Assembly: GCA_944390865.1 (NCBI GenBank)
Contig: CALXRC010000007.1
Coordinates: 1 to 64,000, forward strand
Source of the DNA: an uncultured Spirochaetales bacterium
Lineage (GTDB): Bacteria > Spirochaetota > Spirochaetia > Sphaerochaetales > Sphaerochaetaceae
DNA length: 64,000 bases
Direction of reading: 5' to 3'
In this document: one piece after another, positions 30,533 through 45,502 of the stretch
How the letters are laid out: the number at the start of each line of letters is the position of its first letter
Position numbering within the stretch: position 1 is the first letter of the stretch
Program-made: the position numbers and the translations under genes
The notes under the pieces: generated by a model
Told to the model about the DNA's origin: nothing
Seen by the model: only the letters and a program-made list of their open reading frames with translations
Database searches by the model: none

Positions 30533-31615
30533 ATGAGAACACTGCTCATACTTGGTGCCACAGGTTCTATCGGCACGACTGCGCTGAATGCAGTCAGGCA
30601 GAAGAAGCTTGACGTACGGATCACTGGACTTGTAGCACATTCCTCATCTGACAGGCTCAGAGCACTGGCAGAAGAGTTTTCATGCCCTTTTACACTGAAC
30701 ACTGACAGCAGCAGCCTGAGATCATTCATCAGGGCAAACAGAGCTGACATTGCACTGAACGCGATAGCCGGAGCAGCAGGACTTGAAGCCAGTCTTTTCT
30801 GCCTGCAGGAAGGAATGGATCTGGCCCTGGCAAACAAGGAATCAGTCGTCATGGGCGGTCAGGTGCTCTTTGACGAAGCGAAAAAGAACAAGGCCAGGAT
30901 CATTCCGGTCGACAGCGAGCACAGCGCTATATACCACCTGCTCAAGGGCAGGCCTGATGCAGAGTCCCTGGTGATAACCGCAAGCGGAGGCCCCTTTCTC
31001 GGACGCGGGGATCTGGAAAATGTCAGCCCGGAAGAGGCTGCGAACCATCCGACATGGAAGATGGGAAGAAAGATATCCATTGACAGCAGCACGCTTGCGA
31101 ACAAGGGCCTGGAAGTGATTGAGGCAGGCTTTCTTTTCAATATGCCTGCAGACAGAATCGAAGTCACGATCCACAGACAGTCAGTTGTCCACTCAATGGT
31201 GAGAATGAAGGATGGAAGCGTATATGCGCAGCTTTCTCCTCCAGACATGACGCTGCCGATTGTAAGTGCAGTCAATGATGACAGGCAGGTTCTTCATGAG
31301 GTAGTCAGACCTCTGTCTTTCAGCGGCCTGACGCTGACCTTCCAGGACTGGGACAGGACTGAGTTTCCCCTTCTTGCTCTTGCTTACAAAGCTCTTGAGA
31401 GGAAAAAGTCCTACCCTGTGGCCTTCAATGCCGCAGATGAGGTTGCCGTTGCGGCATTCTGCGACAGGAAGATCAGATACACAGACATCGCGCGCATTGT
31501 CTCTGCCGTAATGGAAGAAGACTGGTCAGCTGAAATAACCAGCTATGAGGATATCATCGTGCAGGACAGGCTGGCGCGTCTGAAGGCAGGTCAGTTATGC
31601 TCCTGTCATATCTGA
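30533..31615 (+). CDS. dxr: 1-deoxy-D-xylulose 5-phosphate reductoisomerase
   Basis: 360 residues. LILGATGSIGTTAL is the NADPH loop. ALANKESVVMGG, PVDSEHSAIYHLL and the catalytic-loop SGGPF block with MGRKISIDSSTLANKG are all present. It makes MEP, the first committed step of the MEP isoprenoid route that feeds uppS. It starts 4 bases after cdsA. Confidence 0.96.
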   Translation: MRTLLILGATGSIGTTALNAVRQKKLDVRITGLVAHSSSDRLRALAEEFSCPFTLNTDSSSLRSFIRANRADIALNAIAGAAGLEASLFCLQEGMDLALANKESVVMGGQVLFDEAKKNKARIIPVDSEHSAIYHLLKGRPDAESLVITASGGPFLGRGDLENVSPEEAANHPTWKMGRKISIDSSTLANKGLEVIEAGFLFNMPADRIEVTIHRQSVVHSMVRMKDGSVYAQLSPPDMTLPIVSAVNDDRQVLHEVVRPLSFSGLTLTFQDWDRTEFPLLALAYKALERKKSYPVAFNAADEVAVAAFCDRKIRYTDIARIVSAVMEEDWSAEITSYEDIIVQDRLARLKAGQLCSCHI

Positions 31616-33019: not shown

Positions 33020-33964
33020 TTACATCAGGGCTTCTGCTTTCTTGACCATGTTGTCAGCTGTCATGCCGAAAGTCTCAGCAAGGTAAGAGAGTGAGCCGAC
33101 TTCTCCGAAGCGCTCTCCGACATTGATGAAATCAACTTTTGCGCTGATTCCTTCTTTGAAAAGAAGCGCACTGATCATCTCTCCCGTTCCCCCGGGATAG
33201 CGTCCGTTCTCACAGATCAGAAGCCTTCCGGTCTCCGCTGCGGCCTTAGTGATCGTCTCTGCATCAAGCGGGCGGATTGTATGCAGGTCAATGACTCTCG
33301 TGCTGACTCCCTTTGCCTCAAGAGCAGCTGCTGCCTTCTCTGCCTCGCTGACAAGATGGACGCCTGTCGCGATTATGGTCAGGTCACTTCCGTCTCTTAC
33401 AGTGATTGCCTTGCCGAGCCTGATCTCTACATCATCGCCATAGCGTCTTGTGGAGCCCTTTCTCGGAGTTCTCAGATAGGATGACTGCCCCGTGGCATAG
33501 ACCTGCTGGACAAGCTCATACAGGCTTCTGATATCACTTGGCTCATAGATTATGAGTCCTGGAATCTGGCGCATCAGTGCAATATCCTCAAACGGCATAT
33601 GCGTTCCGCCGTTGTACTGAGCCGTGATGCCCGGATCTGTGCCGACAATGTGCACTGTGCGGTGCGCATAGCCGATTGAGATGAACACCTGATCATACAT
33701 TCTTCTGGATGCGAAGCAGCCGAAGCTGTGAATGAACGGAGTCAGGCCGACAGAGGAAAGTCCTCCGGCAACTGCTGCCATGTTGGCCTCTGCGATTCCG
33801 CAGTTGTAGAAGCGGTCAGGGAACTCCTTCTGGAACTCTGTTGTTCCAAGGCAGGAGGAAAGATCACTGTCAAGCACGACAATGTCATCATGAACCTTTG
33901 CAAGATCAATGATCGAACCGACTACTGCATCTCTGTAGTTTTCATATACGCTTGTGTCTTTCAT
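33020..33964 (-). CDS. transketolase, C-terminal half
   Basis: 314 residues corresponding to the pyrimidine-binding and C-terminal transketolase domains: the Glu in the FYNCGIAEANM block that activates thiamine, then TVHIVGTDPGITAQYNGG..., GVHLVSEAEKAA. It pairs with the next gene upstream, a separate N-terminal half; the two overlap by four bases. The split form is common in spirochaetes and clostridia. Together they interconvert pentose, heptose and triose phosphates. It is the last gene of the operon. Confidence 0.93.
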   Translation of the reverse strand: MKDTSVYENYRDAVVGSIIDLAKVHDDIVVLDSDLSSCLGTTEFQKEFPDRFYNCGIAEANMAAVAGGLSSVGLTPFIHSFGCFASRRMYDQVFISIGYAHRTVHIVGTDPGITAQYNGGTHMPFEDIALMRQIPGLIIYEPSDIRSLYELVQQVYATGQSSYLRTPRKGSTRRYGDDVEIRLGKAITVRDGSDLTIIATGVHLVSEAEKAAAALEAKGVSTRVIDLHTIRPLDAETITKAAAETGRLLICENGRYPGGTGEMISALLFKEGISAKVDFINVGERFGEVGSLSYLAETFGMTADNMVKKAEALM

Positions 33965-34803
33965 GCCTTTCCCCCTTCTCTCTCAAGTAAAGCTGCAATA
34001 GCCTCTTCTGCCTTTTCCTTTGAAACAGGCATGGAATGGTTAGCCTTGATGCCCTCACCGGGGATGTAGCCATAACTCTTGACTGTATGCAGAAGAATCA
34101 TTGTCGGCCTGGTCTTTTCTTCCTTTGCCTTTGCGATCGCGGCTGCAATCTGCTCAAAGTCATGACCGTTCTCCACTTCAACAGTATTCCATCCGAAACT
34201 GTCGTAACGCTGATCCAGCTTGTGCATCGGGATGATATTCTCTGTGTAGTCGTCAAGCTGCTGGCCGTTGATGTCTGTAAAGGCAATGAGCCTGTTCAGA
34301 TGCCATGCGCCTGCAGCCTCTGCAGCTTCCCAGACCTCTCCTTCCTGGCTTTCGCCGTCGCCGACGATTGCATATGTGTAAGCATCGCAGCCTCTGATCT
34401 TCTGGCCCAGAGCAATGCCGACTGCCGCGCTTATTCCCTGTCCAAGAGAACCGGCAGTGAAATCAACGCCAGGAGTCTTTGTCATGTCAGCATGGCTGGG
34501 AAGGCGTGTTCCGCCCTGATTCAGCGTGCTGAGCATGCTCTCATCAAAATAGCCTTTCTTCGCGAGCATCGCATAAAGAGCCGGACCGCTGTGACCTTTT
34601 GAAATTACAAGGCGGTCGCGCTCAGGCCAGTCAGGCCTTGAAGGATCGATATTCATCTCATGATAGTAGAGATAGGTCAGCACTTCCACAACAGACATGC
34701 TGCCTCCGATATGGCCGGAACCAAAGGATGCGATTTCCCTTATGATCTTCACTCTCGCATCCAGAGCTTCCTTTTTCAGTTTCTCCAGTTCTCTGCTGTC
34801 CAT
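33961..34803 (-). CDS. transketolase, N-terminal (thiamine-diphosphate-binding) half
   Basis: 280 residues. GHIGGSMSVVEVLTYLYY, SKGHSGPALYAMLA and the thiamine diphosphate motif VGDGESQEGEVWEAAEAAGAW are all present. AFTDINGQQLD is the conserved strand after the cofactor site. ATG 34803 has GGAGG seven bases before it. Coupled to the C-terminal half by an ATGA overlap. Confidence 0.93.
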   Translation of the reverse strand: MDSRELEKLKKEALDARVKIIREIASFGSGHIGGSMSVVEVLTYLYYHEMNIDPSRPDWPERDRLVISKGHSGPALYAMLAKKGYFDESMLSTLNQGGTRLPSHADMTKTPGVDFTAGSLGQGISAAVGIALGQKIRGCDAYTYAIVGDGESQEGEVWEAAEAAGAWHLNRLIAFTDINGQQLDDYTENIIPMHKLDQRYDSFGWNTVEVENGHDFEQIAAAIAKAKEEKTRPTMILLHTVKSYGYIPGEGIKANHSMPVSKEKAEEAIAALLEREGGKA

Positions 34804-34805
34804 GC

Positions 34806-35246
34806 TTACCTCCTCTCCAGCTTTGCAATTTTATCGATTCTCTGCTGGTGCACTCCGCCCAGGAAGCTGCTGGACATATATGATTCCACCAGATTCCAGG
34901 CCAGTTCCACTCCCAGCGTCCTTGCTCCCAGTGTGATGACATTGGCATTATTGTGAGCCTTTGCCATGGCGGCTGAGTATGCATCAGACAGATGGGCAGC
35001 CCTGATACCGTCAATTTTGTTGGCGGCAATTGAAATTCCGATTCCGGTTCCGCAGATGAGAATGCCGAAATCATAACCGTCCTTCAGCAGTCTGGTGCAC
35101 AGTGTCTGGGCAACATCAGGGTAATCCACCGCATCCTTGCTGTAGCAGCCAATATCCTCTACCTCATGGCCTTCTTTCTTCAATCGTACGGCCAGCTCGC
35201 CCTTAAGCTCATAGCCGCCGTGGTCCGATCCGATAATTATTCTCAT
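34806..35246 (-). CDS. rpiB: ribose-5-phosphate isomerase B
   Basis: 146 residues. GSDHGGYELK, ILICGTGIGISIAANK (catalytic Cys) and SDAYSAAMAKAHNNANVITLGAR match RpiB/LacAB. RpiB interconverts ribose 5-phosphate and ribulose 5-phosphate; some homologues act on allose 6-phosphate. Its 3' end is two bases from the transketolase start, and the upstream LacI gene overlaps it by four bases. Its position supports a pentose-phosphate fate for the imported sugar. Confidence 0.9.
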   Translation of the reverse strand: MRIIIGSDHGGYELKGELAVRLKKEGHEVEDIGCYSKDAVDYPDVAQTLCTRLLKDGYDFGILICGTGIGISIAANKIDGIRAAHLSDAYSAAMAKAHNNANVITLGARTLGVELAWNLVESYMSSSFLGGVHQQRIDKIAKLERR

Positions 35247-36268
35247 TTCTCCTCCTTTCTCGCTTCTGCCAGGGTCTTTCCCTCAATGAACGAACAGGCA
35301 ATCTGTGTCTCCTCACTGAAGTTCTTTACACCTGTCTCTATCCACTCAATCAGAAAGCGGCATCCGAGACTTCCCATCTCGAAGCGCGGCAGACTGATTG
35401 TCGTTATCTGCGGCGTGATCACACGCGACAGATAGATTCCGTCAATACCTGTTATCGAAAGATCAGCAGGTACCCTTATTCCCCTCTCAAGAGCCGCCGC
35501 GACAGCCGCGACGGCAAGCATGTCGTTGATGCACATCAGCACTGAAAAATCAGCATGACTGTCCAGAATGGCACCTGCGGAGGCCTTGCCGCTGTCCAGA
35601 TCAAGCGGACTTGTCCAGACCAGGTCAGGATTATAGACTCCCCTGCTCTTCAGAAGAGTCACCATCCACTGAAGCCTTGTGTTGTACAGCCATGATCCCT
35701 CAGGAGACGAGAGAATTCCGATCCTTCTGTGACCAAGGGCAACAACTCTGTCAACAAGAGAACTGAGCAGATCAAGCTCATTCTGGTGAACAAGAGGCAT
35801 GCCTGCGAAGCGGACAGCGGAAGTAAACGACAGTACCTTGATTCCCTGTTCCATCGTATGCTTCAGCTCCGTCTCAATCTCGCTGTCAGGATAGAAGCCA
35901 AGGGAAATCAGGATTCCGTCAACTCCGCGGCTTGCAAGCGCACGCAGCGAAGAGACAACCTTCCGGCTGCTGCGCTCTGCATCGCAGACAAAGATGATGT
36001 AGCCCTTGCTGGCGGCATATTCCTCAACAGCGTAGATGATCTCCATGAAGAACTCATTCTTCAAAGAACCTACAATCAGGCCCAGCGTATGAGAACGGTT
36101 TGTCCTCAGGGCCTTGGCTGTCGCGCTCGGCTGATAGTTCATCTCCTGCGCAATCTTCTGAATCCGTCTTCTTGTCTCCTCTGAGACAGAAGGCTTGTTG
36201 TTCAGCGCCATAGATACTGTCGCGGCAGTCACGCCTGCTTTGGTTGCCACATCCTTGATAGTTACCAT
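35243..36268 (-). CDS. LacI-family transcriptional regulator
   Basis: 341 residues from ATG 36268, with GGAG five bases before it. The HTH (TIKDVATKAGVTAATVSMALNN, then hinge helix SATAKALRT) is intact and the rest is a periplasmic-binding-like effector domain with ILSSPEG and GIDGI blocks. It sits inside the operon and most likely controls it. CG-centred operator-like motifs lie upstream of the first gene at 45.3-45.5 kb. A sugar, sugar phosphate or nucleoside effector is expected. Confidence 0.9.
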   Translation of the reverse strand: MVTIKDVATKAGVTAATVSMALNNKPSVSEETRRRIQKIAQEMNYQPSATAKALRTNRSHTLGLIVGSLKNEFFMEIIYAVEEYAASKGYIIFVCDAERSSRKVVSSLRALASRGVDGILISLGFYPDSEIETELKHTMEQGIKVLSFTSAVRFAGMPLVHQNELDLLSSLVDRVVALGHRRIGILSSPEGSWLYNTRLQWMVTLLKSRGVYNPDLVWTSPLDLDSGKASAGAILDSHADFSVLMCINDMLAVAAVAAALERGIRVPADLSITGIDGIYLSRVITPQITTISLPRFEMGSLGCRFLIEWIETGVKNFSEETQIACSFIEGKTLAEARKEEK

Positions 36269-36270
36269 TA

Positions 36271-36942
36271 TCACTCCAGACAAGCTGAGAATCTGTCTAT
36301 ATTCTCTTCCAAACCTCCATCTTTTGAAAAGATGCACAATGCCCCTGCGACTAAATCATCAGCACCGGCACTCACACACTTTGCAGCATTCTCAAAACTG
36401 ATTCCGCCGTCAACAAGTATCCTGAACGGGAAACCCTTATCAAGCCTTAGGGAGGAAAGCGTCCTGACCCTGTCAAGTGTGTCATCTATGAAGCGCTGTC
36501 CGGCAAAGCCCGGCTTTACTCCCATCATGATGACATAGTCAGTCATCCCGAGCCAGGGCTCAAGCTCATGCACAGCCTGATGAGGGCTGAGCACAAGTCC
36601 GGCTTTTGCTCCGCCTGATTTTATCATCCTCAGCAGTGCAGGGATATCAAGATCAGTGCGCTCGCTGTGAAACGCGACAGCAGCGGCTCCGCATTCCAGA
36701 CTTGTCCTGATGTCGCGTTCAACCTCGCCTGTCATCAGATGGACATCGCACGGCGTGTCCGTGTATGAGCTGACTGCTTTCAGATAATCGAAATTGAGAC
36801 AGTAGTTCGGAACGAAATTGCCGTCCATGATGTCGATGTGATAACTCGCCACCTTTGCCCTGTCCATGATATCGATCTGATTTCTGAGATCAAGATAGTC
36901 AGCACAGGCAAGCGTCGGGAAAATTCCGGCCTTACTCTTCAT
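36271..36942 (-). CDS. ribulose-phosphate 3-epimerase-like protein
   Basis: 223 residues from ATG 36942 (AGGA site). It has the Rpe barrel motifs: HIDIMDGNFVPN (metal His and catalytic Asp), VAFHSE, MGVKPGFAGQRF and LVDGGISFENA. Length and motifs fit Rpe or allulose-6-phosphate 3-epimerase. The segment NYCLNFDYLKAV differs from typical Rpe, so a hexulose or other phospho-sugar is possible. Its start overlaps the sulfatase stop by 11 bases. Confidence 0.82.
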   Translation of the reverse strand: MKSKAGIFPTLACADYLDLRNQIDIMDRAKVASYHIDIMDGNFVPNYCLNFDYLKAVSSYTDTPCDVHLMTGEVERDIRTSLECGAAAVAFHSERTDLDIPALLRMIKSGGAKAGLVLSPHQAVHELEPWLGMTDYVIMMGVKPGFAGQRFIDDTLDRVRTLSSLRLDKGFPFRILVDGGISFENAAKCVSAGADDLVAGALCIFSKDGGLEENIDRFSACLE

Positions 36943-38461
36943 AAGTCTTCCTCGCACTGCTGATCAGCCAGTCAGGATCTACTGTATCCCCGCTTGACTT
37001 CATCAGCTTTCTCAGCTCATCCCTGAGCTCATCACGCTTTGGGAAAAAGGCAGGATCCTGACTGAGGTTGTTCATCTCATAAGGATCTTTGCCAAGATCA
37101 TAAAGCTGCTCAAGATCGTGTTCTGTCACAACGTACTTCCAGCCATCCTTGTAGACAAGCCGGCTGATGATAGTGCAGCCGTAGCCATGTCCGTAGCTTT
37201 CGCACATCAGGCTGTTTCTCCAGTCACACTTCTCTCCTCTTGCAAGGGGAAGCAGGGACTGTCCGTCACAGCCTTTTCTGAAGCTCAGGCCTGCGGCATC
37301 CATCATTGTCGGCGCCGTATCGCAGGTGAAGACAAGATGATCGTCGCTCTGGTGCGGCGCAATAACACCCTTCCAGCTCATGGCATACGGAACTCTCATC
37401 ACTTCTTCGCTCATATGGCTGTTCTTGTCGAAATGACCTCCGTGGCTGGCAATGGCGTCTCCATGGTCAGTAGCCCATATGATGAGTGTGTTGTCATCAA
37501 GACCAAGCTCTCTGACCTTGTCAACAATCATTCCGCCTGCGGCATCAATCATTGTAATATGAGCATAGCAGCGTGCAAGAATCTTCTGCCAGTCAGACCA
37601 CGGGAGAGCTGAAGGCACCTTGATCCACTCACCATCCTCAGTCATCGGATGGCTCAGCTCCATTCTGAAGACATCCGGCTGACCTTTGAGGTCATCCCTG
37701 AATGAAGGGTACTCGCCGATATCCTCAGGTTTGTACATCGAAGCAAACTCCTCTGTCGGGAAGAAAGGCTGATGAGGGCCCCAGAAATGAACCTGAAGCA
37801 TAAAGGGCCTGTCGCTTTCCGTCCTGCTGAGCTCCTCCAGCCTGTCCATGGCCAGATGCGCGAGGAAGAAGGCTTCATGCGTCTCCTTGGGCGTGGTTGT
37901 TATTCCGACGGCATGCTCACCGCACCAGCCTGTCCTGCAGGAATAGTCAGCTCCGGCTTTCAGTCCGGGGAAATAACCCTGGCTGACATAGGAGTCTGTC
38001 ATGAACGCATATTCCACATGATGGCTGGCCGGAGGAAGATTGTTCTTCTTCAGATAATCCTCGTACTCCGGAGTTATGTACGGGTTGCCATAGCTTGTGT
38101 AGGAAAAGCCCTCACAGTGATGGTCACGGGCATCTCCGGGACCGGCATGCCACTTGCCATAGTAATAGTTTCTGTAGCCGTTCTCATATAGGCTGTCCAG
38201 GATTACCTCATCATCATACGGCGGATCATTCTCGTTGTGGACCTGCTTGTGATTATGAGGATACAGGCCAGTCAGCATTGTCCTTCGGGCCGGTCCGCAC
38301 ATAGGAGTGACGCAGCGGGCCTGAGAAAAGGAGATGCCTGTATCGGCAAAGGCTTCAAAGCAGGGGCGCTTTGGCATTACGCCCCCTTTGTAAAGTCCGT
38401 GGCCGAAATAGGCCTGATGGTCCTGGAGAATATATATGATATTTGGCTTTCTCTCAGCCAT
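36932..38461 (-). CDS. sulfatase-superfamily enzyme
   Basis: 509 residues. The formylglycine signature C-x-P-x-R is at C55-G-P-A-R59, followed by RTMLTGLYPHNH. YYYGKWHAG, WATDHGD and SHGGH give further metal and sulfate ligands. There is no signal peptide, so it works in the cytoplasm on something imported. Cys in the signature needs a formylglycine-forming enzyme, not found in the window. A phosphodiesterase activity is also possible in this superfamily. Its start abuts the nucleoside hydrolase stop at 38461. Confidence 0.88.
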   Translation of the reverse strand: MAERKPNIIYILQDHQAYFGHGLYKGGVMPKRPCFEAFADTGISFSQARCVTPMCGPARRTMLTGLYPHNHKQVHNENDPPYDDEVILDSLYENGYRNYYYGKWHAGPGDARDHHCEGFSYTSYGNPYITPEYEDYLKKNNLPPASHHVEYAFMTDSYVSQGYFPGLKAGADYSCRTGWCGEHAVGITTTPKETHEAFFLAHLAMDRLEELSRTESDRPFMLQVHFWGPHQPFFPTEEFASMYKPEDIGEYPSFRDDLKGQPDVFRMELSHPMTEDGEWIKVPSALPWSDWQKILARCYAHITMIDAAGGMIVDKVRELGLDDNTLIIWATDHGDAIASHGGHFDKNSHMSEEVMRVPYAMSWKGVIAPHQSDDHLVFTCDTAPTMMDAAGLSFRKGCDGQSLLPLARGEKCDWRNSLMCESYGHGYGCTIISRLVYKDGWKYVVTEHDLEQLYDLGKDPYEMNNLSQDPAFFPKRDELRDELRKLMKSSGDTVDPDWLISSARKTYEE

Positions 38462-39465
38462 CAGCCGTACCTCCTGACGGAATCCAGGAAGAGACTGATG
38501 AACTTTTCGCGGTCGATGCTCTCAAGCAAAGTGAGGTTGCGTTCAGCATCGCTCTTCTTGTAGTAGTCATTCTTGTCGATCAGCGTGAAGCCTGTTGTCA
38601 GTTCTCCCTTTGTCTCAACATCGCAGTAGTATTTTGCGCTTGTGAAAAGCGAGGGATCAATCACATAGGCGACTGTTGCCGGATCATGAAGCGTGACAAG
38701 CTCTTCCTTAGCAGCCTTCAGCCTGTTTTCCGATATCTCCTCCTCGCCCTCTCCGCCAATCACCTCATCGCTCTTGATCTTGGTGATGCCGTAGCTGTTG
38801 ATGATGCTTGCGGCAAAAGTGGCGACAGGAGTGTTCATCTGCTCGAGCATCTTCACCTCTTCTGGGGTGATGACAGCTGTCTTTGTAAGCTCAAGAGGAC
38901 ATGAGACAAACGGGATTCCGGCAAAGGCGACAATCCTGAAGGCCTCAGGATCAACGAGAACGTTGAAGGTTGAGAGGCTTGTGGGATTTCCGCAGTGATA
39001 GCTGGTTCCCATAAAGACAATCTTTCTGATCTTGTCCTTGACTTCAGGATGCTCTCTCAGAAGCTTCGCAATGTTTGTCAGAGGACCGATTGCAAGGATG
39101 CTCACAGCCTCATCACTCTCCTTGAGAAGCGAGCAGAGGAAGGAGACAGCGTCCTGGCTGACAAGATTGTCAGTATAGTTTTTCTCGAATGTCCATCCGC
39201 GAAGTCCGCTTACTCCGTGAACTCCGCTGGCTTTAAGGCTCTCCCGCTCAAGCGGTTTGGACTCTCCCTTTGCGATCCTGATATCATCACGGCCAAGGAA
39301 ATGGCAGACGTTGCAGGTGTTTCTTGTAGTGTTCTCCACATCGACATTTCCGGCAACTGTCGTGATTCCGATGATGTCAAGTTCAGGACGTGAGAGCGCA
39401 AGCACAAGTGCCAGGGCATCATCGATACCTGTATCACAGTCTATAATGACTCGTTCTTTACTCAT
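38461..39465 (-). CDS. inosine-uridine-type nucleoside hydrolase
   Basis: 334 residues. VIIDCDTGIDDALALVLAL at the N-terminus binds Ca2+ and ribose; GNVDVENTTRNT, LAIGPLTNIAKLL and TLHDPATVAYV (His and Asp) complete the active site. The family splits nucleosides into base and free ribose. Next to a nucleoside-type ABC transporter it is the probable first catabolic step. Overlaps the sulfatase by one base. Confidence 0.9.
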   Translation of the reverse strand: MSKERVIIDCDTGIDDALALVLALSRPELDIIGITTVAGNVDVENTTRNTCNVCHFLGRDDIRIAKGESKPLERESLKASGVHGVSGLRGWTFEKNYTDNLVSQDAVSFLCSLLKESDEAVSILAIGPLTNIAKLLREHPEVKDKIRKIVFMGTSYHCGNPTSLSTFNVLVDPEAFRIVAFAGIPFVSCPLELTKTAVITPEEVKMLEQMNTPVATFAASIINSYGITKIKSDEVIGGEGEEEISENRLKAAKEELVTLHDPATVAYVIDPSLFTSAKYYCDVETKGELTTGFTLIDKNDYYKKSDAERNLTLLESIDREKFISLFLDSVRRYG

Positions 39466-39475
39466 AAGTTATCCC

Positions 39476-40411
39476 CTATTTTTCTGTAGCATACTTTGTG
39501 TAAGGCTTGCCGCCTGAGGTGATTCCGAAGTACTTCATCTTCCTGCTTGTAACGGCAAGGATGATCAGGATTGCCAGATAAGGAATCATCTGGATGAAGT
39601 CGCTTGGTATCGGATTTGACGGAATGGTCTGCAGATACAGCTGCAAGGCATCAAAGAAACCGAAAATCATAGCTGATCCATAGGAGAGCAGAGGATTCCA
39701 GCGTCCCATCGTAACAGCACCAAGGGCAAGATAGCCTCGTCCTGAAACCATGCCTTCCTGGAACAGGTTCATCTGTCCGATTGAAAGCATCGCGCCTCCA
39801 AGACCTCCCAGAAGACCTGAAGCAAGGACTGAGATGTAGCGCACGCGGTGGACATTGATTCCGCAGGTCTCTGCCATTGTCGGATTCTCGCCTACAGCAG
39901 TGATATGGAAGCCAAAGCGCGTGAACTTGAAAAGCAGCGTGACAAGTATCAGAGCGATGAAGCCGAGATAGACAAAGGGTGAAAGATGCGAAAGGAAGCC
40001 GCCGATCAGAGGCACTGATGCCAGGAAGCCGGTTGTCGGGAGGTTGTTGACCTGAGCACTGCTTCCGCTCTGACCGAAGAATGCCTCGACGCCTACGCCG
40101 CAGATGCCTTCTGCCAGAAGAACGAGAGCCATAGAGCTGACAGCCTGCTTTGCACCGACTGTGATTGTGAGGACACAGTGGATAGCAGAGATCAGGATTC
40201 CTGTCAGGATTGCAAACAGGATGCCTACCCATGGGCTGCCTGTGTAATAGGAACCGACAACTGCCGCAAAGGCGCCTGCAGTCATGATTCCCTCAAGACC
40301 GATGTTGTTGACACCTGAACGCTCTGAGACGACTCCGCCGAGGGCTGTGAATGCAATAGGAGTTCCCATTCTCAATGTTGTTGGTATCATGTATGAGATA
40401 AATTCGAACAT
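39476..40411 (-). CDS. ABC transporter permease, nucleoside/BMP type
   Basis: 311 residues, about eight helices, GGVVSERSGVNNIGLEGIM near the start is the hallmark of the BMP-type (YufQ/NupQ) permease. It pairs with the permease at 40422, forming the channel of the transporter powered by the ATPase at 41459. Confidence 0.9.
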   Translation of the reverse strand: MFEFISYMIPTTLRMGTPIAFTALGGVVSERSGVNNIGLEGIMTAGAFAAVVGSYYTGSPWVGILFAILTGILISAIHCVLTITVGAKQAVSSMALVLLAEGICGVGVEAFFGQSGSSAQVNNLPTTGFLASVPLIGGFLSHLSPFVYLGFIALILVTLLFKFTRFGFHITAVGENPTMAETCGINVHRVRYISVLASGLLGGLGGAMLSIGQMNLFQEGMVSGRGYLALGAVTMGRWNPLLSYGSAMIFGFFDALQLYLQTIPSNPIPSDFIQMIPYLAILIILAVTSRKMKYFGITSGGKPYTKYATEK

Positions 40412-40421
40412 TTCCTTCCTC

Positions 40422-41462
40422 CTATTTTCTGCGGTTCATATAATAGCGGATGAGGTTTTCAAGACAGATGAAAACGACAACCAGGCCCTGGATGATTCCG
40501 ACCATGTCAGAAGAAACGCCGACAGTCGCCTGCATCAGGAAGCTGCCTGATCTCATCATGCCGAAAAAGAATCCGGTCAGGATGATGGCAAACGGGTTGT
40601 TTCTGGCCATGAGGGCAATAGGAATGCCTGAAAAGCCATAGCCGGAAGAGAAGCCGTTGACCATTCGCTTGAGGCTGCCTGAAATCTCAATTCCTCCGGC
40701 AAGACCGGCGATGGCACCTGAGATGAGAAGAGCCATGAACATGTTCTTCTTCACGTTGATGCCGCTGAACTCACTGGCTGTCCTGTTAAGGCCTACAGCG
40801 GTCATTTCATAGCCCTTTGTCGTCTTGTTCATGTAAATATAGATGAGCACGACAGCAAGGATCATGAGTATGAAGCCAAGGTTCAGCTGGTAAGGACTTG
40901 GCAGGATGTTGGGAAGTGTGGCGCTGGCCAGAAGCGGATCTGTTGCAGGAGCGCTTGTTGCACCGTGGAACGGTCCCATTACGCAGTACTGCACAAAGAA
41001 CTGGACAACATAGTTCAGCATGATTGTGCTGATGACGACACTGACATTGCAGCTTGAGTTGAGAATGGCAGGGAAGAATGCTATCAGGGCACCGCCAAGC
41101 ATGCCTGCAAGTATTGTCGCAGCCAGATGAAGCGGTCCTGGAAGCGGCACGTAAATGCCTACAAGACCGGCACACAGCCCGCCGAACATCAGCTGGCCTT
41201 CAACACCGATGTTGAATGCTGATGACTTAAAGGCAACGGCAACAGCCAGTCCGGCAAGGATAAGCGGCACGGATGTTTTAAGTGTCATCGTAAGAGACAC
41301 AAGAGACCCCATTGAACCCTTGATGAGCGCACCGTATGCGCTTATCGGGTTGTATCCCATTGCCAGAATGATGACTGCGCCGACAATAAGAGACAAAAGC
41401 ACAGCAATGAAGGAAATGAGGAACTGCTGCAGTATGTCTTTCTGTTTGCTTGAGATTGTCAT
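40422..41462 (-). CDS. ABC transporter permease, nucleoside/BMP type (NupP-like)
   Basis: 346 residues, about nine helices. AFKSSAFNIGVEGQLMFGGL and GLNRTASEFSGINVKK are the conserved blocks of the larger permease in BMP-type nucleoside transporters. Its start overlaps the ATPase stop (41459-41462), so translation is coupled. Confidence 0.9.
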   Translation of the reverse strand: MTISSKQKDILQQFLISFIAVLLSLIVGAVIILAMGYNPISAYGALIKGSMGSLVSLTMTLKTSVPLILAGLAVAVAFKSSAFNIGVEGQLMFGGLCAGLVGIYVPLPGPLHLAATILAGMLGGALIAFFPAILNSSCNVSVVISTIMLNYVVQFFVQYCVMGPFHGATSAPATDPLLASATLPNILPSPYQLNLGFILMILAVVLIYIYMNKTTKGYEMTAVGLNRTASEFSGINVKKNMFMALLISGAIAGLAGGIEISGSLKRMVNGFSSGYGFSGIPIALMARNNPFAIILTGFFFGMMRSGSFLMQATVGVSSDMVGIIQGLVVVFICLENLIRYYMNRRK

Positions 41463-42988
41463 TCATTTCCTCCTTTCTTTGAGCCGAGCATGAGATAGCC
41501 CAGACTTTCCTTATCGGCAGTAGCCGCATCGACAACAGCAACAATCTTTCCGTCAAAGATGACAGCGATCTTATCGCTGACAGCAAGAATCTCATCCAGC
41601 TCCATGGAAATGAGCAGGACAGCCTTGTTTTCGTTCCTCAGCCTGATCAGAGTATCCTGAACCGAGTCTGAGGCACCGATATCAAGACCGCGGGTCGGCT
41701 GGATTGCAACATAGAGCTTAGGATCGTTGTTTGCCTCTCTCGCGATGACGATCTTCTGCTGGTTTCCTCCCGAAAGGGTTCCGGCTGCAACCTGAATGTT
41801 CGCCAGCCTGATGTCATAATCCTTCGCCAGCTTTTCAGCATTCTCGTTGATCGCATCCTTTTTGAGCCAGAAGCCGTGCTTTGAATATGCAGGCAGGTAG
41901 TGCTGGCCGAGAATTAGGTTGTAGGCTACTGAATACTGGAGGACAAGACTTTCCTTCTGTCGGTCTTCCGCGACATAGCCAAGGCCCATGTCACGGCGTT
42001 CCTTGACTGTATGGCCGATCATGTCCTCTCCGTTGAACAGGATCTGTCCGCTGTCAGGCTTGAAGAGGCCGAGGATGCATTTCTCCATCTCCTCCTGTCC
42101 GTTTCCGTCAACGCCGGCAATTCCGACAATCTCTCCTTCATGGACAGACAGATCGAGCCCCTTGAGCTTTTCATTGCCCTCAACATTTGTATAGTGAAGA
42201 TCCTTGATCGAGAGAACTTCCTTTCCGGGCTTTATGTCAGCCCTGCTCTTTCGTCCGGTATCAACACTGTGGCCGACCATCATGCGTGTGATCTCGTCTA
42301 TGCTCGTATCACAGATGGCCCTTGTTCCGATGACCTCGCCCCTTCTGATGACTGTGACATGATCAGAGACCTTCATGACTTCGGCCAGCTTGTGGCTGAT
42401 GAAGATGATGGTCTTGCCCTTCTCCTTGAGAGAAAGGAGAATGTCGCAGAACTCATCGATCAGGTGAGGCGGAAGCACTGCAGTCGGCTCGTCGAAGATG
42501 AGGATGTCCGCCTGGCGGTACAGAACCTTGATAATCTCAACCCTCTGCTGCTCAGGAACTGAGAGCTCTCCCACTTTCTTTGTCACATCGATGTTGAGTT
42601 CATATTTGTCTGAGATTGCCTGGACTTCCTCGACAGCCTTTTTCCTGTCAATCTTCAGCGAAGTGCCCGGCTCCTGTCCGATAATAACGTTTTCCATCAC
42701 AGAGAGCTTCGGAATCAGCATGAAATGCTGGTGAACCATTCCGATGCCTGCTCTGTTGCTGTCTCTCGGGCTTGAGAATTTTTCTTCCTTCCCGTTGATG
42801 ATGATCTGTCCTTCATCTGGTACCAGAAGACCAAAAAGGATGTTCATCAGGGTTGATTTGCCTGCACCGTTCTCACCGGCAAGGGCGTGAATTTCGCCCT
42901 TGCGCACTGAGAATGTGATGTTATTGTTTGCGACAACCCCGGGAAAGCGCTTTGTAATGCCCTTCAGTTCAATTGCGTATTCAGCCAT
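41459..42988 (-). CDS. ABC transporter ATP-binding protein with two nucleotide-binding domains
   Basis: 509 residues. The first NBD has GENGAGKSTLMN (Walker A), LSVPEQQRVEI (signature) and LIFDEPTAVL (Walker B). The second has a degenerate Walker A (GVDGNGQEE), GGNQQKIVIAR and the GLDIGA motif. This sugar-type (RbsA-like) tandem is typical of nucleoside ABC importers. GGAGG precedes the ATG. It powers the two permeases encoded downstream. Confidence 0.93.
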   Translation of the reverse strand: MAEYAIELKGITKRFPGVVANNNITFSVRKGEIHALAGENGAGKSTLMNILFGLLVPDEGQIIINGKEEKFSSPRDSNRAGIGMVHQHFMLIPKLSVMENVIIGQEPGTSLKIDRKKAVEEVQAISDKYELNIDVTKKVGELSVPEQQRVEIIKVLYRQADILIFDEPTAVLPPHLIDEFCDILLSLKEKGKTIIFISHKLAEVMKVSDHVTVIRRGEVIGTRAICDTSIDEITRMMVGHSVDTGRKSRADIKPGKEVLSIKDLHYTNVEGNEKLKGLDLSVHEGEIVGIAGVDGNGQEEMEKCILGLFKPDSGQILFNGEDMIGHTVKERRDMGLGYVAEDRQKESLVLQYSVAYNLILGQHYLPAYSKHGFWLKKDAINENAEKLAKDYDIRLANIQVAAGTLSGGNQQKIVIAREANNDPKLYVAIQPTRGLDIGASDSVQDTLIRLRNENKAVLLISMELDEILAVSDKIAVIFDGKIVAVVDAATADKESLGYLMLGSKKGGNE

Positions 42989-43012
42989 CTTTCCTCCTGG
43001 TGGAAATGCCTT

Positions 43013-44086
43013 TTACTGAGCGTTGAATGCGTTGTAATCAGCTTCTGTCTGCGGCGGTACGAGCTCTCCGCTGATGATTGCTGCAGAGATCTCATCAAGC
43101 TGAGACTGGATCTCAGGTGTGATCATTGCAAGCAGGTCCTCATTCATATTTGTATATCTGACGATGACACCGTCATTGGAAAGACCGAGGCTTGTCGGAG
43201 AAGATGTGTCGAAGTTTCCGTTCTCCACATAGTCTGTGACGATTGCCAGGATTGTCTGGTCAACAGGCTTCACAAGAGAAGCGATGATCTTGTCAGGCAT
43301 CTGATCGAACTGGCCCTTGGCAGCTCCGAAGCAGTATCTGCCCTCTCCTGCGCTGGCAGCGGCATTGAATACGCCAACATTGCATGCACCGGCAAAGCAG
43401 GACACGATATCAGCACCTCTTGAGTACATTGCGTTTGCAACTTCCTGTCCCTTGTTGATATCTGTATAGCTGTTTGTGTAGGCGGACTGTACAGTGATGT
43501 CCGGGTTGATGTACTCAGCACCGGCCTTGAAGCCCCAGGTGAAACGCTCCTGCACGATATCGCCGGAAACGGCTGCGACAGAACCTACGTTGCCTGTCTG
43601 GCTGAGCAGAGCTGCGAGAGAGCCGATGAGGAAGGCGCCTTCCTGCTCTGCGTAGACAGTTGTCATGACGTTAGCCGGCATTCCATCTGCCTCATTCAGA
43701 TAGAGGAACTTGACATCGGGATACTCAAGTGCAACCTCAACCATCGCATCTGCATACTCGGCAGAACCGATGACAATGAAGTTGACGCCCTGTGCGATCA
43801 GAGTTCTCAGGCTGTTGCCTGCATCAGCGATGTCAGGAACTTCAAGACAGATATTCTCAAACCCGTACTTCTCGCCTACTGCTTCGATGCCGTCTCTGAT
43901 GTCATCGTTGAAGCTCTGGGTTCCGTAAATCTGCGCGATCATTCCAAGCTTGAGTGTCACGGCCTCATCCTGGGATGCAGCGGAGGCGCTTGACGATGAT
44001 GAGCTTGATGAATCACTGCCGGAACAGGCTGTGAAAGCCATCAGGACGACAAGCATCAGTGCCATTAGTTTGATAATCTTCTTCAT
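43013..44086 (-). CDS. BMP-family nucleoside-binding lipoprotein
   Basis: 357 residues. Signal with lipobox AFTAC at Cys 21, then a poly-Ser linker (residues 23-40). The mature part follows the BMP fold: LKLGMIAQIYGTQSFND, NFIVIGSAEYADAM and the C-terminal KPVDQTILAIVTDYVENG. Related spirochaete proteins (TmpC/PnrA) bind purine nucleosides. It delivers the substrate to the ABC transporter. AAGGAG precedes the ATG. Confidence 0.92.
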   Translation of the reverse strand: MKKIIKLMALMLVVLMAFTACSGSDSSSSSSSSASAASQDEAVTLKLGMIAQIYGTQSFNDDIRDGIEAVGEKYGFENICLEVPDIADAGNSLRTLIAQGVNFIVIGSAEYADAMVEVALEYPDVKFLYLNEADGMPANVMTTVYAEQEGAFLIGSLAALLSQTGNVGSVAAVSGDIVQERFTWGFKAGAEYINPDITVQSAYTNSYTDINKGQEVANAMYSRGADIVSCFAGACNVGVFNAAASAGEGRYCFGAAKGQFDQMPDKIIASLVKPVDQTILAIVTDYVENGNFDTSSPTSLGLSNDGVIVRYTNMNEDLLAMITPEIQSQLDEISAAIISGELVPPQTEADYNAFNAQ

Positions 44087-44118
44087 TTGACTCTCCTTTT
44101 TTTGTATGTTTACCTGGG

Positions 44119-45315
44119 TTATTTCCAGTTTTTAAGTGCGCTGAAAAATGCGTTGACGCATTCTGTGTGGTCGCCGCTGACAATTATCTGATGATTGCCA
44201 AGCGGAGAAGTGAGGAAGTAGTCCACGTCAGGGCAGCTGAGCCTGATCTGTGTCCTGCACAGCGTTGCCTCGCAGAGATTTTCCTCAAAGACAGCCTTCT
44301 GCACGGCGTAGCGTCCATCCTCAAAACACTTGAAGACAGTATACACCCCTTTTTCGAACTCGCCTTTGACAGCCACGCTGATTCCGCTCTCAAAGTGTGT
44401 TGTCAGGCTGTAATCCCTGACCATTGACAGAGGAAGCGTGCAGTGTGCGAACACGACAGTCTTCCTGCTGACGTCAATCCTGCTGGGGTTTGCCATAAAG
44501 CAGGGCCTGCCAGTGAGAGTGTTCATGACAATCATTGAAAGCAGGCTTCTTGTATCACCTTCGCAGCTGGCGGGAATTCCCTCGCTGTTCAGCAGGGCAA
44601 GCGCGATGCAGCCTGTGGCCTTGAGCGGTGCGATCAGATCAAAGCAGCGCAGTGATACGGCATCAAATGAATTTTTTTCTATCAGTGCCTTCACGCCCTT
44701 GTAGATCTGAAGTGCCTTGTTCATCTCCTCTGTGCTGCTTTCCTTCTTGTAAAGGTAATCGAAAGACTCATCGTAGGATGCGTCTGCCTCCCTGATCGCC
44801 TGAGCCACTTCCTCCATTGAGATATAAGTCGTCTTCAGGCCGAATGTCTTCTCGCAGACAGCTGTGTCATACTCGCTGTTGATCAGCATGTTGGGGCTGC
44901 CGAGCACACCTACCCTGTAGCCGTTCAGGCGGCCGAGGGTTCTGTTGATAGTCTCAATTTCCTCAAGCTGGGCAGCCATCTCATCCACTGAGCCGTGAAC
45001 AATCCTTCCTGCCTGTCCATTGATCTGGACATAGCTGAGCTCCTCCATTGAAGCTGCAAGAGAATTGTTGGACTGGGTTGTGATGAAGACAAAGGGACCG
45101 GGCATCATTGAGAAGATATGCTTGAAGGCCTGAGCACTTCCGCCGGAAGCGACGAAGATGTACTTGCATCTTTCGCTCTTCAGCTCTTCTTCAGGAACGA
45201 AGCTGACTTCATAGCCCAGCTTTTCAGAAAGGCCCTTCCTGACTTCCTCTGCCTCTTCGAGAATCCTTCGTTTGTCATTCTCAAGCGGTGTTGCGATGAG
45301 CGCTGCTTTAATCAT
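44119..45315 (-). CDS. FucI/AraA-fold protein of unknown substrate
   Basis: 398 residues. The C-terminal half reads like the L-fucose isomerase-related family: SLRCFDLI, CEGDTRSLLSMIVMNTLTG, then FAHCTLP and a block ending in HFESG. The metal-binding residues expected in the family (Glu/Asp in CEGD, His in AHC) are visible. The N-terminal 150 residues form a Rossmann-like region. It may be a sugar isomerase acting on the released pentose, but this is inference. It is the first gene of the operon and has GGAGGT eight bases before the ATG. Confidence 0.75.
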   Translation of the reverse strand: MIKAALIATPLENDKRRILEEAEEVRKGLSEKLGYEVSFVPEEELKSERCKYIFVASGGSAQAFKHIFSMMPGPFVFITTQSNNSLAASMEELSYVQINGQAGRIVHGSVDEMAAQLEEIETINRTLGRLNGYRVGVLGSPNMLINSEYDTAVCEKTFGLKTTYISMEEVAQAIREADASYDESFDYLYKKESSTEEMNKALQIYKGVKALIEKNSFDAVSLRCFDLIAPLKATGCIALALLNSEGIPASCEGDTRSLLSMIVMNTLTGRPCFMANPSRIDVSRKTVVFAHCTLPLSMVRDYSLTTHFESGISVAVKGEFEKGVYTVFKCFEDGRYAVQKAVFEENLCEATLCRTQIRLSCPDVDYFLTSPLGNHQIIVSGDHTECVNAFFSALKNWK

Positions 45316-45326
45316 TATTTACCTCC

Positions 45327-45343
45327 AGTTAGACGTTTAAGTT
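45327..45343 (-). promoter_or_regulatory. LacI-type operator copy 1
   Basis: On the minus strand the core TTAAACGTCTAACT sits between the promoter and the ribosome binding site, 12 bases before the start codon of the first operon gene. The centre is CG, as in most LacI-family operators. Confidence 0.5.
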
Positions 45344-45359
45344 AAATAATTTCTTTTGT

Positions 45360-45388
45360 TTCATAGCAATAAAACCAACGAAATCCAA
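45360..45388 (-). promoter_or_regulatory. promoter of the nucleoside/sulfatase operon
   Basis: Minus strand: TTGGAT (45383-45388) and TATGAA (45360-45365) with exactly 17 bases between. The start site would be near 45353, inside the stretch framed by operator copies 1 and 2. Confidence 0.5.
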
Positions 45389-45392
45389 AATT

Positions 45393-45410
45393 AACTTAAA
45401 CGATTAACTA
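45393..45410 (+). promoter_or_regulatory. LacI-type operator copy 2
   Basis: AACTTAAACGATTAACTA. The core TTAA-ACGA-TTAA is almost palindromic around a CG. It abuts the -35 box of the operon promoter. Confidence 0.55.
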
Positions 45411-45488: not shown

Positions 45489-45502
45489 TAAACCGATTAA
45501 CT
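45489..45502 (+). promoter_or_regulatory. LacI-type operator copy 3
   Basis: TAAACCGATTAACT, differing from copy 2 in two bases, 93 bases further upstream. It could be an auxiliary site for looping. Confidence 0.45.

Follow-up and report, generated by a model that had tools for sequence, protein, structure and literature searches.

A conserved twelve-gene operon of a Sphaerochaetaceae bacterium joins a sulfatase to nucleoside import and pentose conversion and may serve the catabolism of sulfated nucleosides

The DNA analysed here is a stretch of 64,000 nucleotides (the window) from an uncultured Spirochaetales bacterium of the family Sphaerochaetaceae (GenBank assembly GCA_944390865.1, contig CALXRC010000007.1, positions 1 to 64,000). 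Between positions 33020 and 45315, its minus strand carries twelve co-oriented open reading frames (ORFs) that bring together an ATP-binding cassette (ABC) importer of the BMP type, a nucleoside hydrolase, a sulfatase, enzymes of pentose conversion and a LacI-family regulator, and that on balance probably constitute a LacI-controlled operon for the catabolism of sulfated nucleosides in some form. An ORF check of the window bore out the initial annotation of twelve genes on one strand with hardly any space between them: in order of rising coordinates, and with starts at 36274 for LacI and 36942 for Rpe, the eleven intergenic gaps measure −4, 2, −4, −4, −11, −1, 10, 10, −4, 24, and 32 bases. In order of transcription, the genes are as follows.

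44119..45315, minus strand: AraA/FucI-fold ketol-isomerase-like protein, first gene of the operon, 398 residues (predicted structure, fold match, homologues)
43013..44086, minus strand: BMP/PnrA-type substrate-binding protein (Pfam PF02608, residue alignment)
41459..42988, minus strand: tandem ABC ATPase of the importer (PF00005, two stretches)
40422..41462, minus strand: permease 1 (PF02653), presumably NupP-like
39476..40411, minus strand: permease 2 (PF02653), presumably NupQ-like
38461..39465, minus strand: RihA-type nucleoside hydrolase with Thr at the Crithidia Glu166 position (profiles, alignment, tree)
36932..38461, minus strand: S1-type sulfatase with Cys-x-Pro-x-Arg (Pfam, motif, tree)
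36271..36942, minus strand: ribulose-phosphate 3-epimerase (Rpe) family, second copy of the genome, with Gly-Ala in place of Gly-Ser (profiles, alignment)
35243..36274, minus strand: LacI-family regulator (Pfam/NCBIfam)
34806..35246, minus strand: RpiB-family isomerase with Val in place of the phosphate-anchoring Arg137 (profiles, alignment)
33961..34803, minus strand: split transketolase, N-terminal (thiamine diphosphate) half (Pfam/NCBIfam)
33020..33964, minus strand: split transketolase, C-terminal half, with Asp for His in the phosphate motif (Pfam, alignment, tree)

The families originally named held up. Both transketolase halves, RpiB, LacI, the Rpe-family epimerase, the sulfatase, the nucleoside hydrolase and the BMP protein (174 bits with PF02608, cut-off 24.1) all exceed their Pfam cut-offs, as do the two permeases and the tandem ATPase encoded in the same operon, while the FucI-fold call is upheld by the predicted structure (see below).

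With the FucI-fold protein as query, 139 genomes of the order yielded two others with an orthologue (63% identity), and both carry all twelve genes in the same order, with the same neighbours at the same chromosomal site. The operon bearers, the window's genome included, thus number three of the 16 genomes of the genus that were searched, and the ordered conservation of the whole set at one site argues against a chance cluster. The sulfatase and the FucI-fold protein, which the initial annotation had singled out as the genes to look for in close relatives, are present in all three spirochaete operons.

The sulfatase scores 140.8 bits with PF00884 (cut-off, 25), comprises Sulfatase and SGSH_C domains and carries the Cys-x-Pro-x-Arg motif as C55-G-P-A-R59, the motif being found in all five sulfatases aligned. 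Neither an N-terminal hydrophobic segment nor a signal peptide was seen by eye in the window enzyme, suggesting that it is probably cytoplasmic. An anaerobic sulfatase-maturing enzyme is encoded elsewhere in the genome (locus L110; TIGR03942, 363.9 bits against a cut-off of 349.45). That locus (G000:C13) is the genome's second sulfatase locus and also encodes what we take to be a galactosyl-N-acetylhexosamine phosphorylase, pointing to mucin-type sugars.

Among 392 genomes of the phylum, no sulfatase more than 47% identical to that of the window was found apart from those of the window's genome and G008. Sulfatase searches were also made in 396 and 397 genomes of two Firmicutes families, Oscillospiraceae and Lachnospiraceae, and 19 loci were read (L224 to L242); eight have the sulfatase beside a BMP importer, one (L228) has a further close relative, and ten show other contexts. 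Altogether, the sulfatase is joined to nucleoside genes at 12 loci (three spirochaete, four Oscillospiraceae, and five Lachnospiraceae) in 11 genomes of two phyla (G000, G008, G014, G495, G703, G801, G876, G937, G1252, G496, and G1040, the last with two loci), and at 11 of the 12 the same BMP-ABC set adjoins it. The nine Firmicutes copies are 50 to 61% identical to the window's. The four Oscillospiraceae loci read Crp, sulfatase, BMP, ATPase, permeases, cytidine deaminase, hydrolase, Rpe, RpiB, transketolase, and one of these families' members, an uncultured Gemmiger (L113), has the FucI-fold protein and the sulfatase at one locus. Four Lachnospiraceae loci are variants with uridine or pyrimidine phosphorylase, cytidine deaminase and DeoC, or with ribokinase and two other hydrolases. 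In Candidatus Scatomonas (L115), the sulfatase is surrounded by uridine phosphorylase, DeoB, DeoC, a maturase fragment (a 184-residue frame with 172.7 bits to TIGR03942 over the first 151 positions of the model), RpiB and a split transketolase, the FucI-fold protein being present as well. What stays constant across these loci is the sulfatase, and what varies is its base-cleaving partner, drawn from non-homologous enzymes: a nucleoside hydrolase, a uridine phosphorylase with DeoB/DeoC, or a pyrimidine-nucleoside phosphorylase with cytidine deaminase and DeoC. As far as gene neighbourhood can tell, the sulfatase is a part of nucleoside catabolism, and the suggestion in the initial annotation that it signals a modified, sulfated substrate is strengthened by its presence in the three spirochaete operons and nine Firmicutes loci.

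On the sulfatase tree, the twelve nucleoside-linked copies require three label changes, against a mean of 10.3 for shuffled labels and with none of 500 shuffles as low; they are clustered without forming a single clade, and the spirochaete and Oscillospiraceae/Scatomonas enzymes group together (support, 95/92). Sulfatases at 31 to 48% identity stand mostly in other contexts (assigned largely by eye, a few by Pfam), which suggests that the nucleoside association is limited to one subclade. Even inside that subclade there are counterexamples, since the copies at L234 and L235 (47 to 48% identical to the window's) sit with a sugar ABC transporter. The close relative at L228 (52%) has as neighbours an ADP-ribosylglycohydrolase-family protein, a maturase above cut-off and a PfkB kinase. 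In genome G094, a 42% identical sulfatase gene overlaps a DeoD purine nucleoside phosphorylase gene (L104, 7838 to 10140); the operon there also encodes a sugar ABC transporter and two further sulfatases.

The first gene of the operon has a less constant place. The AlphaFold model of its product (predicted local distance difference test [pLDDT], 92.6) matches Escherichia coli L-arabinose isomerase with Z 29.7 (root mean square deviation 3.2 over 392 residues) and L-fucose isomerases with Z 26 to 27, all sequence matches being below cut-off (AraA_central, 22.1 against 24 bits; SftI, 57.7 against 700). A contig scan with the single sequence found no relative; in the alignment scan that came after it, the best 80 of 585 relatives, mostly from Firmicutes and Bacteroidales, were taken, and 31 of these 80 loci have a nucleoside-related gene (the sulfatase counted) within 6 kb. 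The same set led us to discard the FucI-fold protein as a marker of the pathway, a sulfatase lying within 6 kb at just 4 of those best 80 of 585. In the stretches read, it occurs at 5 of the 12 sulfatase loci, namely, the three spirochaete operons and two of the nine Firmicutes loci; judged from this distribution, it is a frequent but dispensable partner. The single-pathway, sulfated-nucleoside reading of the cluster finds support in the sulfatase, kept by nucleoside genes in two phyla. From its predicted fold, the FucI-fold protein probably isomerises, as an aldose-ketose isomerase, a free sugar released from nucleosides. Within the order, homologues without the operon are 56% (G051) or 35 to 40% identical. 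G009 has a 94-residue frame (L043, 10694 to 10978) that matches residues 321 to 395 alone, at 50% identity and with no operon, perhaps a remnant or an assembly effect. In G027, a homologue accompanies a purine-nucleoside phosphorylase and a 5'-deoxyadenosine/methylthioadenosine deaminase-related protein, both below cut-offs. Three Lachnospiraceae loci (L117, L119, and L125) combine a FucI-fold gene with a nucleoside hydrolase, a nucleoside phosphorylase, a TenA-family protein and a transporter that looks like the energy-coupling factor (ECF) type, perhaps for salvage of an unusual nucleoside.

The enzymes of the operon also differ from their relatives at positions that would be expected to contact the substrate. 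In nucleoside hydrolases, the glutamate at the Crithidia Glu166 position holds the 5'-hydroxyl. The window hydrolase, of the IU_nuc_hydro family, retains D10, D14, N160, N168 and D242 and has Thr for E166, as do all 12 pathway copies, of which eight belong to sulfatase operons and four to the split Lachnospiraceae loci L296/L297; the 14 others read in the same 11 genomes all have Glu, as have the five solved structures shown. PMC10778931 counts the equivalent Glu among the ribose-cavity residues. The Thr166 enzymes form one clade (support, 96/93). RpiB passes its NCBIfam cut-off (TIGR01120, 164.1 against 138.65 bits) and has the catalytic Cys in a CGTG motif. Two of its arginines, Arg137 and Arg141, are said to anchor the phosphate in PMC4783025, on a homology model with dynamics. 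Arg137 is replaced by Val, Ile or Lys in all 11 pathway copies (Val in the window, where Arg141 is kept) and is retained in 11 of the 12 further copies read, of which ten belong to these genomes and two to G001 and G013; the lone exception, L288, comes from a sulfo-transketolase-like cluster. In Rpe, a Gly-Ser whose serine takes part in phosphate binding has become Gly-Ala in 10 of 10 pathway copies; all six housekeeping copies from the genus keep Gly-Ser, as do the four solved structures shown. The operon Rpe falls below the TIGR01163 equivalog cut-off (177 bits against 212.6) and passes the subfamily model NF004076 (167.2 against 165). Of the BmpA residues said in PMC13325309 to engage ribose (Asp98, Asp225, and Lys242), the alignment of 12 BMP proteins shows Asp225 as Ala in all, Asp98 lost in nine and Lys242 kept in all; in the window protein, Asp98 is Asn and Asp225 is Ala, so that it belongs to the same fold family, probably with a changed ligand.

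PfkB-type kinases were searched for in the 10- to 20-kb stretches around the Thr166-hydrolase operons, past the transketolase included, and within that search, limited to the PfkB type and to these stretches, none was found at any of the ten. A ribokinase (TIGR02152, 349.6 bits; cut-off, 299.65) is encoded in the sister sulfatase operon of G1040, both of whose hydrolases have the usual Glu. The lack of a nearby PfkB kinase fits a sugar that is still acidic at C5 after hydrolysis, as read from gene content. Together with the loss of expected 5-phosphate contacts in RpiB and Rpe, it makes doubtful the original proposal that the pentose is channelled as plain pentose phosphates.

We infer a substrate that is most likely a nucleoside bearing a sulfate ester at its 5' position. 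The BMP-type importer would take up the sulfated nucleoside, the specialised hydrolase would separate base from sugar, and the RpiB-type isomerase, Rpe-type epimerase and split transketolase would pass the pentose carbon to central metabolism; at some stage, a cytoplasmic formylglycine sulfatase, matured by the anaerobic maturase encoded elsewhere in the genome, would remove the sulfate. More tentatively, it is possible that sulfate takes the part of phosphate in the RpiB and Rpe steps, in a sulfate-for-phosphate pentose pathway. In this 5-sulfate version, whose order of steps we likewise infer, nucleoside 5'-sulfates would be hydrolysed to ribose 5-sulfate, sulfate-specialised RpiB and Rpe would give xylulose 5-sulfate, and transketolase would take a two-carbon unit and leave glyceraldehyde 3-sulfate, from which the sulfatase would free sulfate last. 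Such a route would need neither kinase nor ATP because the sulfate ester stands in for phosphate, as the sulfonate does in sulfoglycolysis.

Several observations weigh against a sulfated-nucleoside pathway. In two Lachnospiraceae genomes, the hydrolase-RpiB-Rpe-transketolase-BMP set stands apart from the sulfatase: none was seen in the 20 kb read there, and the sulfatase operon occupies another site. The altered hydrolase residue is inherited in one clade, so the taxa are not independent trials; being shared by descent, the changes amount to a few coordinated ones and not dozens of independent ones. A distant RpiB-like protein (L240 in G1039, 29% identical) also lacks the Arg, with no such operon there. 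The window's genome encodes three further BMP proteins, of which one keeps Asp98, Asp225 and Lys242 and two do not, which makes the BMP positions less telling than the hydrolase, RpiB and Rpe changes. The His-to-Asp type of transketolase stands alone, with no operon, in G002 and G013. The AlphaFold model of the sulfatase, built from five sequences, is poor (pLDDT, 54) and unfit for a fold search. A search of the open-licence literature found no description of a sulfated nucleoside as a bacterial nutrient; the papers on sulfated nucleosides there deal mostly with spider, scorpion and other animal venoms and once with insect purine glycosides. Further queries of that literature gave PMC9038784 alone for a nucleoside hydrolase and a sulfatase in a gene cluster, apparently unrelated papers alone for ribose 5-sulfate or nucleoside sulfate, and nothing for ribose isomerase with fucose isomerase and nucleoside. 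Finally, the operon RpiB and transketolase are the sole copies found in the three bearers and may do ordinary pentose-phosphate work there, the other Transket_pyr protein of these genomes resembling, by eye, a 2-oxoacid dehydrogenase.

The last point bears on an ordinary nucleoside operon, a rather unlikely alternative in which plain nucleosides would be imported and hydrolysed, a kinase encoded outside the operon would phosphorylate the ribose, and RpiB, Rpe and transketolase would act on pentose phosphates, the sulfatase scavenging sulfate or having a side role. The sole copies suit it, as do the BMP proteins of solved cases, which bind nucleosides (PMC7093131, PMC13325309), and the G1040 sister locus with its ribokinase above cut-off and two hydrolases with the usual Glu. 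Paralogues were checked in six genomes of the genus, the three bearers and three others: a housekeeping Rpe is present in all six, the second Rpe is confined to the bearers, and no RpiA was found in any of the six. However, neither RpiA nor RpiB was found in G002, a non-bearer whose genome is 98% complete, so that a sole RpiB in the operon is no proof of a housekeeping role. Plain nucleosides would also leave unaccounted for the absence of a PfkB-type kinase from the stretches around the ten Thr166 operons, the residues by which RpiB, Rpe and the hydrolase differ from other copies, and a sulfatase that stays with the transporter in two phyla.

It is improbable, in our estimate, that the pentose is otherwise modified at C5 (5-deoxy, for example) and that the sulfate occupies another position on the nucleoside or a site on an attached sugar, with the sulfatase acting first and RpiB, Rpe and the FucI-fold enzyme handling a non-phosphorylated sugar. 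The lost 5-phosphate contacts would suit any non-phosphorylated C5 group, and the company of the G027 FucI-fold homologue, a purine-nucleoside phosphorylase and a relative of 5'-deoxyadenosine/methylthioadenosine deaminase (below cut-offs), is of the kind expected; yet RpiB keeps the second Arg of the phosphate site and BMP keeps the Lys, suggesting that a negative group remains. A shade less probable still is the import of nucleoside 5'-phosphates and their direct hydrolysis to ribose 5-phosphate, with no kinase needed and with the sulfatase-like enzyme being a phosphohydrolase or a phosphonate/phosphodiester hydrolase. RpiB, Rpe and transketolase do follow directly, with no PfkB-type kinase nearby, and the NCBIfam matches of the sulfatase include PehA (named phosphoric/sulfuric ester hydrolase), but this match is far under its cut-off (109 against 900), RpiB and Rpe lose rather than keep phosphate contacts, and two close sulfatase relatives adjoin a maturase or maturase fragment.

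A sulfo-transketolase pathway for sulfoquinovose, with SqvD/SftI, SqwGH and SqwI, is described in PMC11659671, where sulfofructose transketolases have RAFDR in place of RSFHR. The window transketolase has Asp for His and Cys for Ser in this phosphate motif, and the Firmicutes operon copies keep the usual His; the spirochaete operon transketolases group with that of locus L299 (99/99, six rows), as do the stand-alone copies of G002 and G013. We rejected the transketolase as proof of sulfo-chemistry, given that stand-alone copies share the change and Firmicutes operon copies lack it. Locus L299 (G496, Candidatus Scatomonas pullistercoris) has YihQ-like, SftI-like, split transketolase, RpiB-family, transaldolase-like (by eye) and Fe-alcohol-dehydrogenase genes and, on gene content, probably represents the bifurcated sulfo-transketolase/transaldolase pathway of PMC11659671. 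Its SftI-like protein scores 420 bits, also under the SftI cut-off of 700, beside a YihQ-like neighbour at 956 bits; the Gly-Gly-Arg-His motif is missing from its RpiB-family protein, and its transketolase, like that of the window, has Asp for His. That the window operon is itself a variant of this pathway, for sulfoquinovose or another sulfonated sugar and with incidental nucleoside genes, is very unlikely, for its FucI-fold protein gives 57.7 bits with the sulfoquinovose isomerase model (cut-off, 700), no YihQ-like or sulfoacetaldehyde-reductase-like gene is among the twelve, each of the 12 sulfatase loci counted includes nucleoside genes and, to our knowledge, a sulfatase cannot cleave a C-S bond. 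The families are nevertheless the same (FucI-fold isomerase, split His-to-Asp transketolase, RpiB-family isomerase), and sulfo-transketolase genes have been reported from Sphaerochaetaceae (PMC13219744).

The 221 bases upstream of the first gene contain a promoter-like pair, TTGACA / TAGTAT (read by eye), together with boxes of the type TTAAnCGnTTAA. A motif scan gave three, listed without strand.

45329..45340: operator-like box TTAGACGTTTAA, adjoining the ribosome-binding site of the first gene
45396..45407: operator-like box TTAATCGTTTAA, just downstream of the TTGACA / TAGTAT pair
45489..45500: third, weaker operator-like box (2 mismatches), upstream of the promoter-like pair

Matches to TTAATCGTTTAA with up to 2 mismatches make five rows at three places in the window, all inside the 221-bp upstream stretch; 1.77 rows are expected, and 5 of 100 shuffled windows reach five rows somewhere. 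Boxes stand at corresponding places in both operon-bearing relatives (read by eye). The LacI control initially proposed gains from this clustering and recurrence and falls short of proof. The two operator boxes are inverted to each other (45316 to 45407; L035, 15995 to 16085; L036, 3610 to 3698), and their flanks are complementary in the three genomes (GTTAA/TTAAC, GCGG/CCGC, GCCA/TGGC), which would also allow the leader RNA to form a long stem; folding of the 5' inverted repeat has z −3.8 in the window against −0.7 and −1.0 in the two relatives, a good fold in the window only.

The operon is flanked by what we take to be dnaB, in the same orientation, on one side and a converging rseP on the other. 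A further gene of the window (30533 to 31615) is presumably DXR-like, of the non-mevalonate isoprenoid pathway. A Transket_pyr search of the six genus genomes found no 1-deoxy-D-xylulose 5-phosphate (DXP) synthase, and the same search gave apparent DXP synthases in two Firmicutes genomes.

If the sulfated-nucleoside reading is true, sulfated nucleosides would be an overlooked bacterial nutrient with a dedicated route common to two phyla, the setting probably being animal guts, to judge from the names of the records. Were the 5-sulfate version also true, a pentose route that uses a sulfate ester where others use phosphate would take its place beside the known pathways for sulfonated sugars.

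Among known systems, BMP/PnrA nucleoside importer operons likewise unite a transporter, a base-cleaving enzyme and genes for pentose entry, whereas the window operon adds a conserved sulfatase, its BMP protein has lost ribose-contact Asp residues, its hydrolase has Thr for the ribose-pocket Glu, and Thr166-hydrolase operons have no adjoining PfkB-type kinase. Its sulfatase resembles S1 formylglycine sulfatases in the Cys-x-Pro-x-Arg motif, the Sulfatase and SGSH_C domains and the anaerobic maturase of the genome; it differs in having no visible signal peptide, in being tied to nucleoside uptake and not to glycan breakdown, and in forming a subclade of its own. The FucI-fold protein matches L-arabinose and L-fucose isomerases over its whole length (Z 26 to 30) but is 11 to 15% identical to them, has about 400 residues and recurs in nucleoside clusters. 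Like the sulfo-transketolase pathway, the operon joins a FucI/AraA-fold isomerase, a split transketolase (His-to-Asp in spirochaetes) and an RpiB-family isomerase without a phosphate-binding Arg, and by analogy it may work in a similar way. It falls outside that pathway because it has no sulfoquinovose isomerase over cut-off, no YihQ-like or sulfoacetaldehyde-reductase-like gene, and nucleoside genes instead; its importer, hydrolase, epimerase and sulfatase point to a nucleoside sulfate ester and not to a hexose sulfonate.

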